Positions 49,156 to 53,718 of a DNA stretch of 64,000 nucleotides are shown piece by piece. Each line of letters begins with the position of its first letter. Position 1 is the first letter of the stretch. A program made the position numbers and the translations under genes. This DNA is from an uncultured bacterium. GTDB lineage: Bacteria > Bacteroidota > Bacteroidia > Chitinophagales > Chitinophagaceae. Under the pieces are notes generated by a model. The model saw nothing but the letters and a program-made list of their open reading frames with translations. It was not told the origin of the DNA and ran no database searches. The stretch lies in the NCBI GenBank assembly GCA_903826405.1, contig CAIKEH010000042.1, positions 124,001 to 188,000 on the forward strand, given 5' to 3'.

Positions 49156-50184
49156 ATGAAACGAAAGCAATTCCTGGGTTCGGTCTTCAGCGGAAGTATT
49201 TCCCAGGGTTTTTTGCCCGGGACCTGGATCGATGAGGAAAATGAGGTGACTCACACGATCCCCGCCTATCTGAGACCGGGTGATATCGTAGCCATTACAA
49301 GCCCCGCAGGATTCATCACGGCCGAAGGGATACGGCCCGCAGTCAGGCTGCTGGAAAGCTGGGGATTCCGGATCAGGGTGGGTGAAACGATCGGTCGCCG
49401 TGACCTCAGTTTCGGTGGTACGGATGAAGAGCGCAGGAAGGATATGCAGGCCATGCTGGATGATCCATCGGTGAGGGCCATACTCTGTGCACGTGGTGGA
49501 TATGGCATCACCCGAATCATCGATCAACTTGATCTCAGCCGGTTGAAAGAAAAGCCGAAATGGATCATAGGATTCAGTGACATCACCGCCCTTCATCTTC
49601 AACTTAGCCGAAGTCATCGGATCGCTTCCCTGCATTCCAAAATGTGCAACAGTTTCCCCGATGATTGGGCTGCTGCTGATCCGGTGGTTCAGGGATCCAT
49701 ACTTTCCATTCAAAAAGCGCTTACAGGAGAACAAATGCGCTATTCGGCTCCACCGGATGATCATGATCGTTATGGTACGGCCACTGGAATACTGGTCGGG
49801 GGCAATCTATCCATGATCTTGAATGTGATGAGCACCCGATCCGAGATCCGGACAGATGGTTGCATCCTATTTCTGGAAGAGGTGGGTGAATACCTGTATA
49901 GCTTGGACAGAATGTTTGTGCAACTGAAACGAGCCGGCAAACTCGATCGTTTGGCTGGGCTGATCATCGGAGGTTTCAACAAGATCAGACCTGATGACCC
50001 GGGCGAGGAATTCGGCCGGACATTTTACGACATCGTGCATGAGAAGATAAGTGGCTATTCATATCCGGTCTGTTTCAATTTTCCTGTGGGTCATCAAAAA
50101 AATAATTTTGCGCTGAAATGCGGCGTTAGGCACCGACTGACCGTCAATGCTGAGGGTGTGCAACTTGTCGAGGTCCGCAAGTGA
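49156..50184 (+). CDS. Murein LD-carboxypeptidase (peptidase S66), copy 1
   Basis: 342 residues. The S66 fold is shown by RPGDIVAITSPAGFI near the start, VRAILCARGGYGITRIIDQLD, and IIGFSDITALHLQLS with the nucleophilic Ser (about residue 142). The other triad members fit: Glu in LFLEEVGEYLYSLDRM and His in FPVGHQKNNFALKCG. Such enzymes remove the terminal D-Ala from L,D-linked tetrapeptides during peptidoglycan recycling. The N-terminus (MKRKQFLGSVFSGSIS) resembles a twin-arginine-like or poorly formed signal, so export is uncertain; homologues that recycle act in the cytoplasm. A paralogue follows 72 bases later. Confidence 0.9.
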   Translation: MKRKQFLGSVFSGSISQGFLPGTWIDEENEVTHTIPAYLRPGDIVAITSPAGFITAEGIRPAVRLLESWGFRIRVGETIGRRDLSFGGTDEERRKDMQAMLDDPSVRAILCARGGYGITRIIDQLDLSRLKEKPKWIIGFSDITALHLQLSRSHRIASLHSKMCNSFPDDWAAADPVVQGSILSIQKALTGEQMRYSAPPDDHDRYGTATGILVGGNLSMILNVMSTRSEIRTDGCILFLEEVGEYLYSLDRMFVQLKRAGKLDRLAGLIIGGFNKIRPDDPGEEFGRTFYDIVHEKISGYSYPVCFNFPVGHQKNNFALKCGVRHRLTVNAEGVQLVEVRK

Positions 50185-50256
50185 TCTCAAATTAGAATAA
50201 CTGGACCTGCTCATACCGATTACCAGCGTACCTTGTATCGTCCTAATATCTGAAGT

Positions 50257-51180
50257 ATGAATCACAAGACCGTTCATTTTCCGAGCCCGCTTAAGAAAGG
50301 GGATAGTGTCGGGATCGTCTGTCCAGCGGGGCATATGCCCTTGGAGAAGATCAGTGAATGCATCCGTGTGATCACGATGGACTGGGGTTATGACGTGAGA
50401 GTGGGTTCTACTGTGGGAACTCAGTTCAATTATTTCTCTGGCACGGATGAGGAAAGACTTAACGACCTTCAGTCCATGCTGGACGACCCTAAGATCAGGG
50501 CTGTGCTTTTCGGCCGGGGGGGGTATGGAGTAGGCAGGATCATCGACAGGCTCGACTTCACTGCCTTCCGAAAAAATCCTAAATGGCTGATCGGTTTCAG
50601 TGACATAACGGTCATCCATTCCTTCGTGCTTTCCCAGTTTGGCATTGCCACTTTGCATGCGCCTATGGCCAACGCATTCAACAATGAGGGGTATAAATCC
50701 GAGTATGTTACTTCGCTCCGCGATGCGCTGAAAGGGAAGAAGGCGAAATATGCCAGTGCCCCACATGCCTACGACCGCAGAGGAGATGCAAAGGGCAAAC
50801 TGGTAGGTGGAAATCTATCCCTTCTGGCACATGGTTGCGGAACCACTTCAGATATCTTTACAAGAGGATGTATCCTTTTTTTGGAAGATGTGGGTGAATA
50901 CTTGTACAATATCGATCGTATGATGTACCAATTGAAGAGGAGTGGTAAGTTGGATGAACTGGCAGGACTCGTGGTGGGGGGATTCACGGATATGAAGGAT
51001 ACGGAAACTCCTTTTGGCCAGGATGTATGGTCGATCATTCGGGATATAACATCCCATCAGGGTTATCCCATCTGCTTTGATTTTCCGGTAAGCCATGGGA
51101 GAAAAAATTTTGCCCTTAAAGTAGGGGGCACTTATTCACTCCATGTTCGCAGTACAGGATCCATGCTACGGGAGTTATGA
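50257..51180 (+). CDS. Murein LD-carboxypeptidase (peptidase S66), copy 2
   Basis: 307 residues, strongly similar to the preceding gene: LKKGDSVGIVCPAGHM, VRVGSTVGTQFNYFSGTDEERLNDLQSMLDDP, FGRGGYGVGRIIDRLD and LIGFSDITVIHSFVL with the nucleophile. Glu in LFLEDVGEYLYNIDRM and His in FPVSHGRKNFALKVG complete the triad. It lacks the 30-residue N-terminal extension of copy 1, so it is probably cytoplasmic. The tandem pair looks like a local duplication, with the two copies possibly serving different compartments or peptides. Confidence 0.9.
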   Translation: MNHKTVHFPSPLKKGDSVGIVCPAGHMPLEKISECIRVITMDWGYDVRVGSTVGTQFNYFSGTDEERLNDLQSMLDDPKIRAVLFGRGGYGVGRIIDRLDFTAFRKNPKWLIGFSDITVIHSFVLSQFGIATLHAPMANAFNNEGYKSEYVTSLRDALKGKKAKYASAPHAYDRRGDAKGKLVGGNLSLLAHGCGTTSDIFTRGCILFLEDVGEYLYNIDRMMYQLKRSGKLDELAGLVVGGFTDMKDTETPFGQDVWSIIRDITSHQGYPICFDFPVSHGRKNFALKVGGTYSLHVRSTGSMLREL

Positions 51181-51205
51181 AATCAGGCAGCGCGCTTTCA
51201 TTGGG

Positions 51206-51517
51206 TTAACTTAACCGACTTTTGCCTGCGATCGAGCCGTTCATTACAGTTTCACAAGCCTGGTCGTTGTCAATCTGTTGAGGTGTAATCGTTGGACTGA
51301 TCGGTGTAACGTTCGTTAAATCCTCTGATTCCAGCTCAAAGATGTCCTCCACGATTTTCCCGAAGAGTTTTGCGAGTTTGAGGGCGAGCGTAGTTGAGGG
51401 CATGTATTTCTGGGTTTATATGGCATTAAGGGTTTGACGTGAAACACCGATTTTCTCCGCCAATTGCTGCTGGGTGAGATCATTAATGGCTCGCTGTACC
51501 TTAATGGAATTCTTCAT
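51206..51517 (-). pseudogene. XRE-type helix-turn-helix regulator, interrupted by an in-frame TAA
   Basis: From ATG 51517 the frame reads MKNSIKVQRAINDLTQQQLA and then a complete helix-turn-helix, EKIGVSRQTLNAI, but codon 34 is TAA (51416-51418). Where relatives have Glu (NAIETGKY), this gene has the stop. The frame continues without shift as TQKYMPSTTLALKLAKLFGK and runs to 51206. The coding signal on both sides is intact, so a single base change (for example GAA to TAA) explains it. The C-terminal part, about 35 residues after the usual end (FELE), may also be read past a lost stop. It begins ten bases after the membrane gene. Confidence 0.85.
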
Positions 51518-51527
51518 GGTATAAGGA

Positions 51528-51986
51528 TTATGAGGCAGTAGCTTGACGTTCCCGAGCCAGGACGATATGGAACCGAATCAGAAAGATCAAAAGTATGGTG
51601 CGCATATTGTAGATCATCACGTGCAGATAGCTGAATCCATGTATCATCCAGGTAGCGATGAGCAGCAGGGAATAGTTTACGATAACCGCCCATTGCAGGG
51701 ATTCCAGCCTGATCCGACTGATGTACTCATCCTCATTGGTTTTCCGGGCAAATACCATGAATATCCTACCCGGGATCAGGCCTGTCAGGGCAAATTCATC
51801 GGAAAGATTGATCTGGGAGTCGAATACCAAAAAATCATTTGAATTTTTGTTGGCGTAAACAGGAATGGTCAGGAAATCCGCTTGGAATCCGAAGAACTGG
51901 ATCATGATGCCAAGAGCAAGCGGGGGTAGAAAAATGGCCAGACCGATCCATTTGTATTATACAGGCAATAACCATGTAGATCTCAT
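51528..51986 (-). pseudogene. Membrane protein of an XRE-linked module, interrupted by an in-frame TAA
   Basis: The frame starts at ATG 51986 (MRSTWLLPV) and meets TAA at codon 10 (51957-51959); it then continues without shift as YKWIGLAIFLPPLALGIM, which is a first membrane helix, and ends at 51528. Later helices are WAVIVNYSLLLIATWMIHGF and VMIYNMRTILLIFLIRF. Proteins of this shape, with KTNEDEYISRIRLESLQWAV before the second helix pair, are commonly found next to small XRE regulators in Bacteroidota; function unknown. A start at ATG 51905 would lose the first helix. The stop again replaces a probable Gln or Lys codon by one base change. Confidence 0.8.
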
Positions 51987-52067
51987 TTTGTAAAATTTAT
52001 TTGTTCAAATTCAAACTAAACTCTACAAAAAGGGAACTTGCTTATACAAAAAAATTATAAAGTAGGA

Positions 52068-52889
52068 CTAATTTTTGAGCAGGGAGTCGATCATCTTTTG
52101 GACCTGCGGGAATTGAAACAAATCATTATGGCCTCCACCGGTTATGGTGATGAATTCGTCTGTTTTTTTAAGATAGGGGATGAGTCTTTTGGAGTTACGG
52201 TAAGGGATGGTCCAATCGGAACTGCCATGGAAAATGGTTACCGGTGCAGAGATACGCTGCAGGTAATCAAAGGTCGGGATCTTGATACGGGACATCATTT
52301 CCGTGGGATAGATGGGCAGGTAGGAGCCCATGATGGAGCCGATGCTATAATAGGGTGTCTCGAGGATCACCCTTCGGCAGGATCGGTTCGAGGCGAGTTG
52401 AGCGGCAATACCGGTACCCAATGATTTCCCATATATTATTATGCTGTCTTCGGAATATTTTGACCTGGCCAACTTGTACAATTGACTTGCGAAAGCGTAT
52501 AGATTTTCTTCGCTTCTTTCTCCGGTGCTTTTCCCATATCCGGGATAGTCCACCATCCACAATTCATAACCAGCGGAGGTGAAAGGGTCCGAGTAACGTG
52601 CATACCAGGAGATGTTCTTCCTGTTGCCATGAAAGTAGAGGACCACTCCTCTTTTCGCAGAATCCGGGTTGGTACGAAGGAATTGTACGATGTTCAGGTT
52701 GGTGCTGTTGTTGAAAGGAATATTCAACTCTCTATATGGCTGTGAGAACGCGTAGTCATGTTTTCTGGAAAGAGAGATGTTTCGAAAAAGAAAGGACTCC
52801 TGCAAACTGTACAATAAGATGCCGATGATCCCGTAAGTCAATGCTATTCCCTTGATCCATCTTTTGAGCCTTTTCCGTTCCATGCTCAA
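52068..52889 (-). CDS. Membrane-anchored alpha/beta hydrolase, copy A
   Basis: 273 residues: one N-terminal membrane segment (WIKGIALTYGIIGILLYSL) followed by an alpha/beta hydrolase domain. The oxyanion segment is VVLYFHGNRKNISW, the nucleophile elbow IIIYGKSLGTGIAAQLA (GxSxG), the acid is in FHGSSDWTIPYRNS and the His in ITGGGHNDLFQFP. It resembles the BEM46/ABHD13-type serine hydrolases, whose substrates are mostly unknown. The next gene upstream is a close relative, 16 bases away. M3 (52883) is an alternative start. Confidence 0.85.
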   Translation of the reverse strand: MSMERKRLKRWIKGIALTYGIIGILLYSLQESFLFRNISLSRKHDYAFSQPYRELNIPFNNSTNLNIVQFLRTNPDSAKRGVVLYFHGNRKNISWYARYSDPFTSAGYELWMVDYPGYGKSTGERSEENLYAFASQLYKLARSKYSEDSIIIYGKSLGTGIAAQLASNRSCRRVILETPYYSIGSIMGSYLPIYPTEMMSRIKIPTFDYLQRISAPVTIFHGSSDWTIPYRNSKRLIPYLKKTDEFITITGGGHNDLFQFPQVQKMIDSLLKN

Positions 52890-52905
52890 AGGTAATTCCA
52901 GGATC

Positions 52906-53718
52906 TCATTGCTTGAGGATGTCCCTGATGAAATTATGATATTCTGGGAAGGCTGGGAGGTTGTTGTGTCCTCCGTTCCATATCCTTATGAGTGTGATGC
53001 GAGCTGGATTGAGCTCCTGAAGTTTCTCGCTATGGCGGATGGGGATCAGCCAATCGCGGGTTCCGTGTAATATGTATATGGGGCATTGTACGAGTGGTAT
53101 CCATTTGTCGGATCGGAGATGGTATCGCAGTACCCATTTTATGGGTAGGAAGGGGAGGAAACGTTCCACCACAGTGGAGAAGCTGAAAAAGGGGGAGTCC
53201 AGAATAAGGAAGCGGGGATGGTTTTCTGATGCTAATTTTGTGGCGAACCCGCTGCCAAGGCTCCTGCCGTAAATGATGAGCGCGTTTTCTCCGTATTGAA
53301 CTTTCAGCTCGTCATACACGACTTGCATATCTCCCAGCATGGCTTTTTCACTTCGTTTGCCTGTGCTTTTGCCGAAGCCGCGATAATCCACCAGTACGAC
53401 ATCATAATCATATCGGTAGAAATCGGCGGCATATTTAGCCCATCCTTTGATGCTCCGCGAGTTGCCATGAAAATAAAGGATTAGGCCGAGTGGGTTCTCC
53501 CTGTGGAAGTGCAGGCCATTGATACGTACACCGGGAGCTACATCAAAGAAGAGTTCCCGGAAGGGAGCTTTATATTTGAATCTGAAATCATCCGGTAGCT
53601 TTTCGGGTTTGAAGATGAATCTTTCCTGTATGAGGTAAAGGAGTGCCATCAGCGCCAGGTAACCTGATGCGAGCCACCACCATTCAAGGCCGATCCAAAG
53701 AAGGGTCAACTCCGACAA
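52906..53718 (-). CDS. Membrane-anchored alpha/beta hydrolase, copy B
   Basis: 270 residues with the same plan as the neighbour: a membrane anchor (WWWLASGYLALMALLYLI), LILYFHGNSRSIKGW, the elbow LIIYGRSLGSGFATKLA, the acid in LHGTRDWLIPIRHS and the His in WNGGHNNLPAFP. The shared pieces (YFHGN, DYxGFGKSTGxRSE, GSGxAxxLAS, SDWxIP-like) show duplication. It lies 53 bases after kup and 16 bases before copy A; all may form one transcript. Confidence 0.85.
   Translation of the reverse strand: MSELTLLWIGLEWWWLASGYLALMALLYLIQERFIFKPEKLPDDFRFKYKAPFRELFFDVAPGVRINGLHFHRENPLGLILYFHGNSRSIKGWAKYAADFYRYDYDVVLVDYRGFGKSTGKRSEKAMLGDMQVVYDELKVQYGENALIIYGRSLGSGFATKLASENHPRFLILDSPFFSFSTVVERFLPFLPIKWVLRYHLRSDKWIPLVQCPIYILHGTRDWLIPIRHSEKLQELNPARITLIRIWNGGHNNLPAFPEYHNFIRDILKQ

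Follow-up and report, generated by a model that had tools for sequence, protein, structure and literature searches.

Why should two neighboring genes, each well preserved in the rest of its frame, both be interrupted by a TAA codon? The question is raised by a small locus on the minus strand of a 64,000-nucleotide stretch of DNA (the window) from an uncultured bacterium of the Chitinophagaceae. A membrane-protein gene (51528..51986) is followed, after a gap of 10 bases (51518-51527), by a gene for an XRE/Cro-C1 (HTH_3) regulator (51206..51517), the family-like part of which ends at about 51320. Codon 10 of the membrane gene, counted from ATG 51986, is TAA (51957..51959), as is codon 34 of the regulator gene, counted from ATG 51517 (51416..51418). 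An initial annotation had described the two stops, the unshifted frames, and the ten-base spacing, all of which are confirmed here, and had offered joint inactivation, stop-codon read-through, or a population-level switch as explanations. The best explanation, and a highly probable one, is that a whole two-gene regulatory module has recently been lost by point mutation.

Comparison with relatives makes it clear that both frames read on unshifted to the ends of their families. With the stop replaced by an X, the membrane frame is 56% identical over 147 residues to its counterpart in the locus L002 (E 5e-57), and the XRE frame is 71% identical over 66 residues to its own (E 4e-30) and matches Pfam HTH_3 (E 8.8e-12), which bears out the earlier statement that family-like protein continues beyond each stop. 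Two sets of relatives were used. The first, for detailed comparison, comprises 20 intact pairs (L002-L010 and L012-L022) with gene spacings of -11 to +8 bases, while the second is made up of 29 of the best 30 of 55 order-wide membrane matches, with the window excluded, and shares at least two genomes with the first. One further locus, L011 (G029), a weak second membrane match with two TGA and two TAA codons inside it, was considered as another dead copy. It was treated as a chance match because its open frames gave no match to the family profile and tblastn returned only an unrelated 21-residue match (E 0.049).

The column occupied by the XRE stop is Glu in 20 of 20 relatives of the first set and 29 of 29 of the second, just as the initial annotation had supposed. 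Its guess of Gln or Lys for the membrane column was weakly right, as a single Lys is present there and Gln is absent from the 20 relatives; the column is variable, with Arg in seven, Gly in four, Ser in three, and six other residues once each. None of the 20 has a stop at either column, and at the XRE column the same holds for the additional 29. Among 19 XRE matches from the genus group, inner-stop marks are limited to the window and G021, and the G021 stop is the normal end of the protein after 64 residues.

Programmed or basal read-through, yielding small amounts of the full-length proteins, would explain why frame and family residues persist beyond both stops. In genes of that kind, relatives share the stop and keep the frame beyond it, a pattern that is absent from the 20 relatives and, for the XRE column, from the 29 as well. 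Of the 48 mapped ORFs in the window with a stop, 11 end in TAA, counting the broken membrane frame, so TAA is a working stop here. RNA structure past the two stops is unremarkable (z scores of 0.48 and -0.12), and the XRE frame also overruns its normal end. Read-through is therefore highly improbable. It would also have counted against inactivation had relatives shared the same stops and used starts farther downstream, and among the 20 relatives this arrangement occurs at neither column.

Downstream starts within the window itself were also considered. ATG 51905 opens the longest ATG frame left after the membrane stop (51528-51905), and it is unlikely to be the native start since the first hydrophobic segment would be missing. 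ATG 51403 is likewise an unlikely native start for the XRE gene, as translation from it would miss the opening half of the HTH domain. The nine codons ahead of the membrane stop have a low codon-usage score (-0.32), although they are too few to judge. Hydropathy profiles of the 20 relatives show four hydrophobic segments in the membrane protein of 14, three in five, and two in one. Pfam gave no match to the window frame at E 1, the 20 family members gave scattered single-member Pfam matches with a best E of 0.002 and none convincing, and a profile of the family matched nothing among PDB sequences at E 1.

The far end of the regulator gene holds a third lesion. XRE proteins are 64 to 69 residues long in the relatives (20 in the first set and 29 in the second), whereas the window frame reaches 103. 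The excess, a run-on of 37 codons together with its stop codon (51206..51319, minus strand), does not look like coding sequence: measured against codon usage in the window, the extra codons score -0.10 per codon, compared with +0.28 for the family part past the stop and a long-gene mean of +0.18. The earlier suspicion that a native stop had been lost is thus upheld, with the excess corrected from about 35 residues to 37. The coding lesions of the module thus number three: two gained stops and the loss of one.

It is possible that these lesions arose from errors in sequencing or assembly and that the genes are intact in the real genome. All of the lesions are base substitutions, and the remainder of both proteins is well preserved, as would be expected from such errors. 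On the other hand, mistakes would be needed at both new stops, at the lost stop, and perhaps at three operator positions (discussed below), all within about 850 bases. Completeness of the genome is rated at 100% and contamination at 0.08, and the contig is 253 kb long. In addition, a 353-base gap at the XRE gene is the only one longer than 200 bases in the ORF map of the 64 kb, as read from the gap map rather than gene by gene. We regard an error as quite unlikely.

Upstream of the module lies an open frame for an alpha/beta hydrolase (52068..52889, minus strand; Hydrolase_4, E 3.3e-18), and downstream lies a convergent open frame for an LD-carboxypeptidase (50257..51180, plus strand; Peptidase_S66, E 3.1e-35). 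Each of these neighbors belongs to a tandem pair of paralogs, the LD-carboxypeptidases being 48% identical (49156-51180) and the alpha/beta hydrolases 36% (52068-53718). In G015, the genome of the nearest relative (L002, L042, and L057), an intact pair is flanked by the same two neighbors, with the hydrolase cut by the end of the contig. Short GC-rich CGCCTTTCGCCTC-like repeats, as judged by eye, fill the stretch behind the repressor gene of this genome (L002, about 1200-1290). In another relative, G046, matches to both neighbors lie about 165 bases apart and the module sits on another contig, so this place is not always occupied. The genome of the window yielded no second copy of the module, with one membrane match at E<=1e-3 and one XRE match of the module type at E<=1e-8.

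Upstream of the module, most of 44 relatives carry the palindrome TGTAAA-N6-TTTACA followed by TTTG, which together yield the sequence TAnnTTTG, a Bacteroidota -7 box. The motif was derived from the first 20 loci and the palindrome was tested on 24 others. The mean score at the test loci is 10.5 out of 12, compared with 8.3 in dinucleotide shuffles (standard deviation of the mean 0.16, with 8.75 as the top value in 300 shuffles), and 21 of the 24 reach at least 10 where 1.6 would be expected. A control stretch 200 to 300 bases upstream has a mean of 6.9 (22 loci). Sites were chosen by how well they matched the consensus, for the window and the relatives alike. Three second-set loci for which the start rule gave no start (L100, L102, and L113) and two from the same genomes as L007 and L004 (L085 and L090, respectively) were dropped from the operator counts. 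Some of the relatives' loci seem, by eye, to hold more than one copy of the palindrome.

The presumed operator/promoter remnant of the window (52006..52027, minus strand) keeps 9 of the 12 palindrome bases. It departs from the consensus at three positions that are kept by 39, 39, and 40 of the 44 relatives, and the bases that it has there occur in none of the 44. No TAnnTTTG was found in the 120 bases before the membrane start of the window; 27 of the 44 relatives have it no more than about 60 bases from the start, and the other 17 lack it there. When the box is included, the window scores 13 out of 16, and its site still beats its own shuffles (p 0.008). These departures suggest that the operator has partly decayed, and the evidence is no stronger than suggestive because 13 of the 44 relatives score 13 or lower (four of them only 8 to 11) and 17 likewise lack the box. 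A genome-wide regulon under the exact palindrome was also considered and is not claimed. The genome of the window has no exact copy, and the relatives have five sites in four genomes, two of which are at the module (G046 and G017), too few to support a regulon and similar to the four found with a backwards control.

The membrane gene is present in 16 of the 41 genomes of the genus group, counting the window's own, and an order-wide draw of 298 genomes has it in 53 (55 matches). Carriers of the pair include three Chitinophagaceae records and one Sediminibacterium record. An inner stop is present in two of the 55 membrane matches, the window and G235, and in both it falls within the first 17 codons. 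G235, from another species of the family (L086 1501-1551), has TAG at membrane codon 17 together with a whole repressor frame and a well-kept palindrome, and its operator score with the box included is 15 out of 16. The two early membrane-gene stops may be due to chance, or the membrane gene may be lost first.

A population-level on/off polymorphism would have intact alleles in some cells or strains, with loss selected repeatedly. The separate TAG of G235, in a locus where the repressor frame and the palindrome are kept, is what such a process might leave behind, as is the fact that both stops fall no later than codon 17 in a gene of about 150 codons. The window, however, carries three separate coding lesions that would be hard to reverse. 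Nor does the locus offer a visible substrate for switching, as 51100-52200 contains no inverted repeat and only two weak, chance-like direct repeats of 16 bases. The switch proposed in the initial annotation is accordingly very unlikely. Alternatively, the membrane partner may be knocked out repeatedly in separate species, here the window and G235, because loss of the sensor is beneficial while the repressor persists. The module would then be a selectable switch, in which the repressor dies later, once nothing needs silencing. This idea is speculative, and we consider it improbable.

If the module has recently been inactivated as a whole, its sequence might be expected to change faster than that of its intact counterpart. 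Relative-rate counts that take the two genes together assign more changes to the window than to L002 for 18 of 19 outgroups, and the difference reaches p<0.05 for 14 of them. For the downstream neighbor, 2 of 28 outgroups reach p<0.05 in the same test, each pointing to more change in the window and one with p 0.001, and for the partial upstream neighbor 2 of 9 do so, in opposite directions. Branch lengths in the protein tree are 0.58 for the window, 0.16 for L002, 0.57 for L009, and 1.47 for L010. Taken at face value these counts point to faster change on the window module, and the evidence is moderate only, since the outgroups have a common history and the tree of the downstream gene does not place the window and G015 as sisters. 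In a codon model, dN/dS on the window branch is not raised (0.025 versus 0.053), with synonymous sites saturated and the branch length at its bound, a bound also hit by control runs on the two nearest relatives.

The residues that remain indicate how far decay has gone. Stops aside, the window departs from invariant columns at 1 of 17 positions in the XRE protein and 0 of 11 in the membrane protein, and such a small number of departures suggests an early stage of decay. At nearly invariant membrane columns it departs at 5 of 30, and 4 of the 20 relatives depart at as many or more. Nonsense changes make up about 4.2% of the single substitutions possible in the intact ortholog (80 of 1908), from which we infer that two stops may reflect some tens of neutral changes, with a wide error.

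Recent joint inactivation thus remains the favored reading, as the initial annotation had suggested, on the strength of the non-conserved stops, the lost native stop, the apparent partial erosion of the operator, the intact ortholog in G015, and the single copy found. Intact loci in the relatives have the gene for a small membrane protein head to tail with that for a 66-residue XRE repressor, behind a palindrome that often overlaps TAnnTTTG. The pair probably forms one transcription unit. The repressor would bind the palindrome and so silence the operon that encodes it, while a signal that alters repression would be passed on by the membrane protein, as proposed for CylR1/CylR2. The intact unit would thus be a membrane-sensed, self-repressed switch. 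In the genome of the window, use of the module was presumably lost. Both genes acquired stops, the native stop of the repressor gene vanished, and the operator seems to have been partly eroded. Through polarity, the early membrane-gene stop probably also lowers translation of the second gene. At most, the locus would still yield a membrane fragment started at ATG 51905 and one half of an HTH domain.

The locus offers a clear case of point mutations apparently killing a two-gene regulatory unit, in what amounts to ordinary gene decay. Its comparison with relatives also exposes the intact unit, consisting of a membrane protein with no convincing Pfam match, a CylR2-type repressor, and a conserved palindrome. 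The last of these provides a testable target sequence for the intact system.

Of the systems already described, the intact unit most invites comparison with CylR1/CylR2 of Enterococcus faecalis, in which a 66-residue XRE repressor is likewise paired with a small membrane protein. A profile of the XRE family matches the CylR2 chains (66 residues) at profile positions 3-62 with E values of 3.5e-20 and 6.2e-20, and it matches 9k3w, a regulator of 65 residues, with an E of 9e-26. In the intact relatives the match covers nearly the whole of the 66-residue protein, as expected of a CylR2-type repressor, and with this likeness the unit may work in the manner of CylR1/CylR2. According to a review (PMC3709268), CylR2 is a repressor that occupies a promoter overlapping the one for its own genes, and CylR1, with three helices predicted, is suspected to be a membrane protein and aids induction by an unknown route. 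The systems differ in that the neighbors here are a hydrolase and an LD-carboxypeptidase rather than toxin genes, and both window genes are broken. Four hydrophobic segments also predominate here (14 of 20), in contrast to the three predicted in CylR1 according to PMC3709268.

Other small membrane proteins are paired with XRE repressors as well. YoaS, for example, is a DUF2975 protein, and DUF2975 was absent among the nine families matched at E 0.1 by the 20 scanned members of the membrane family, which keeps the present pair apart from YozG/YoaS. What is shared with a YoaS-like and XRE pair in PMC2701414 is the conserved pairing of a membrane protein with an XRE repressor, and pairs of this type, one of them YoaS-like, are excluded there from a list of toxin-antitoxin systems. 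In its current state the locus is also comparable with ordinary bacterial pseudogenes. Both frames are interrupted relative to intact orthologs, one of which lies at the same chromosomal place, and nonsense changes, loss of a native stop, and probable erosion of the promoter are all familiar features of such genes. The window differs in having as yet no frameshift or large deletion, and in that two adjacent genes have been hit alike.
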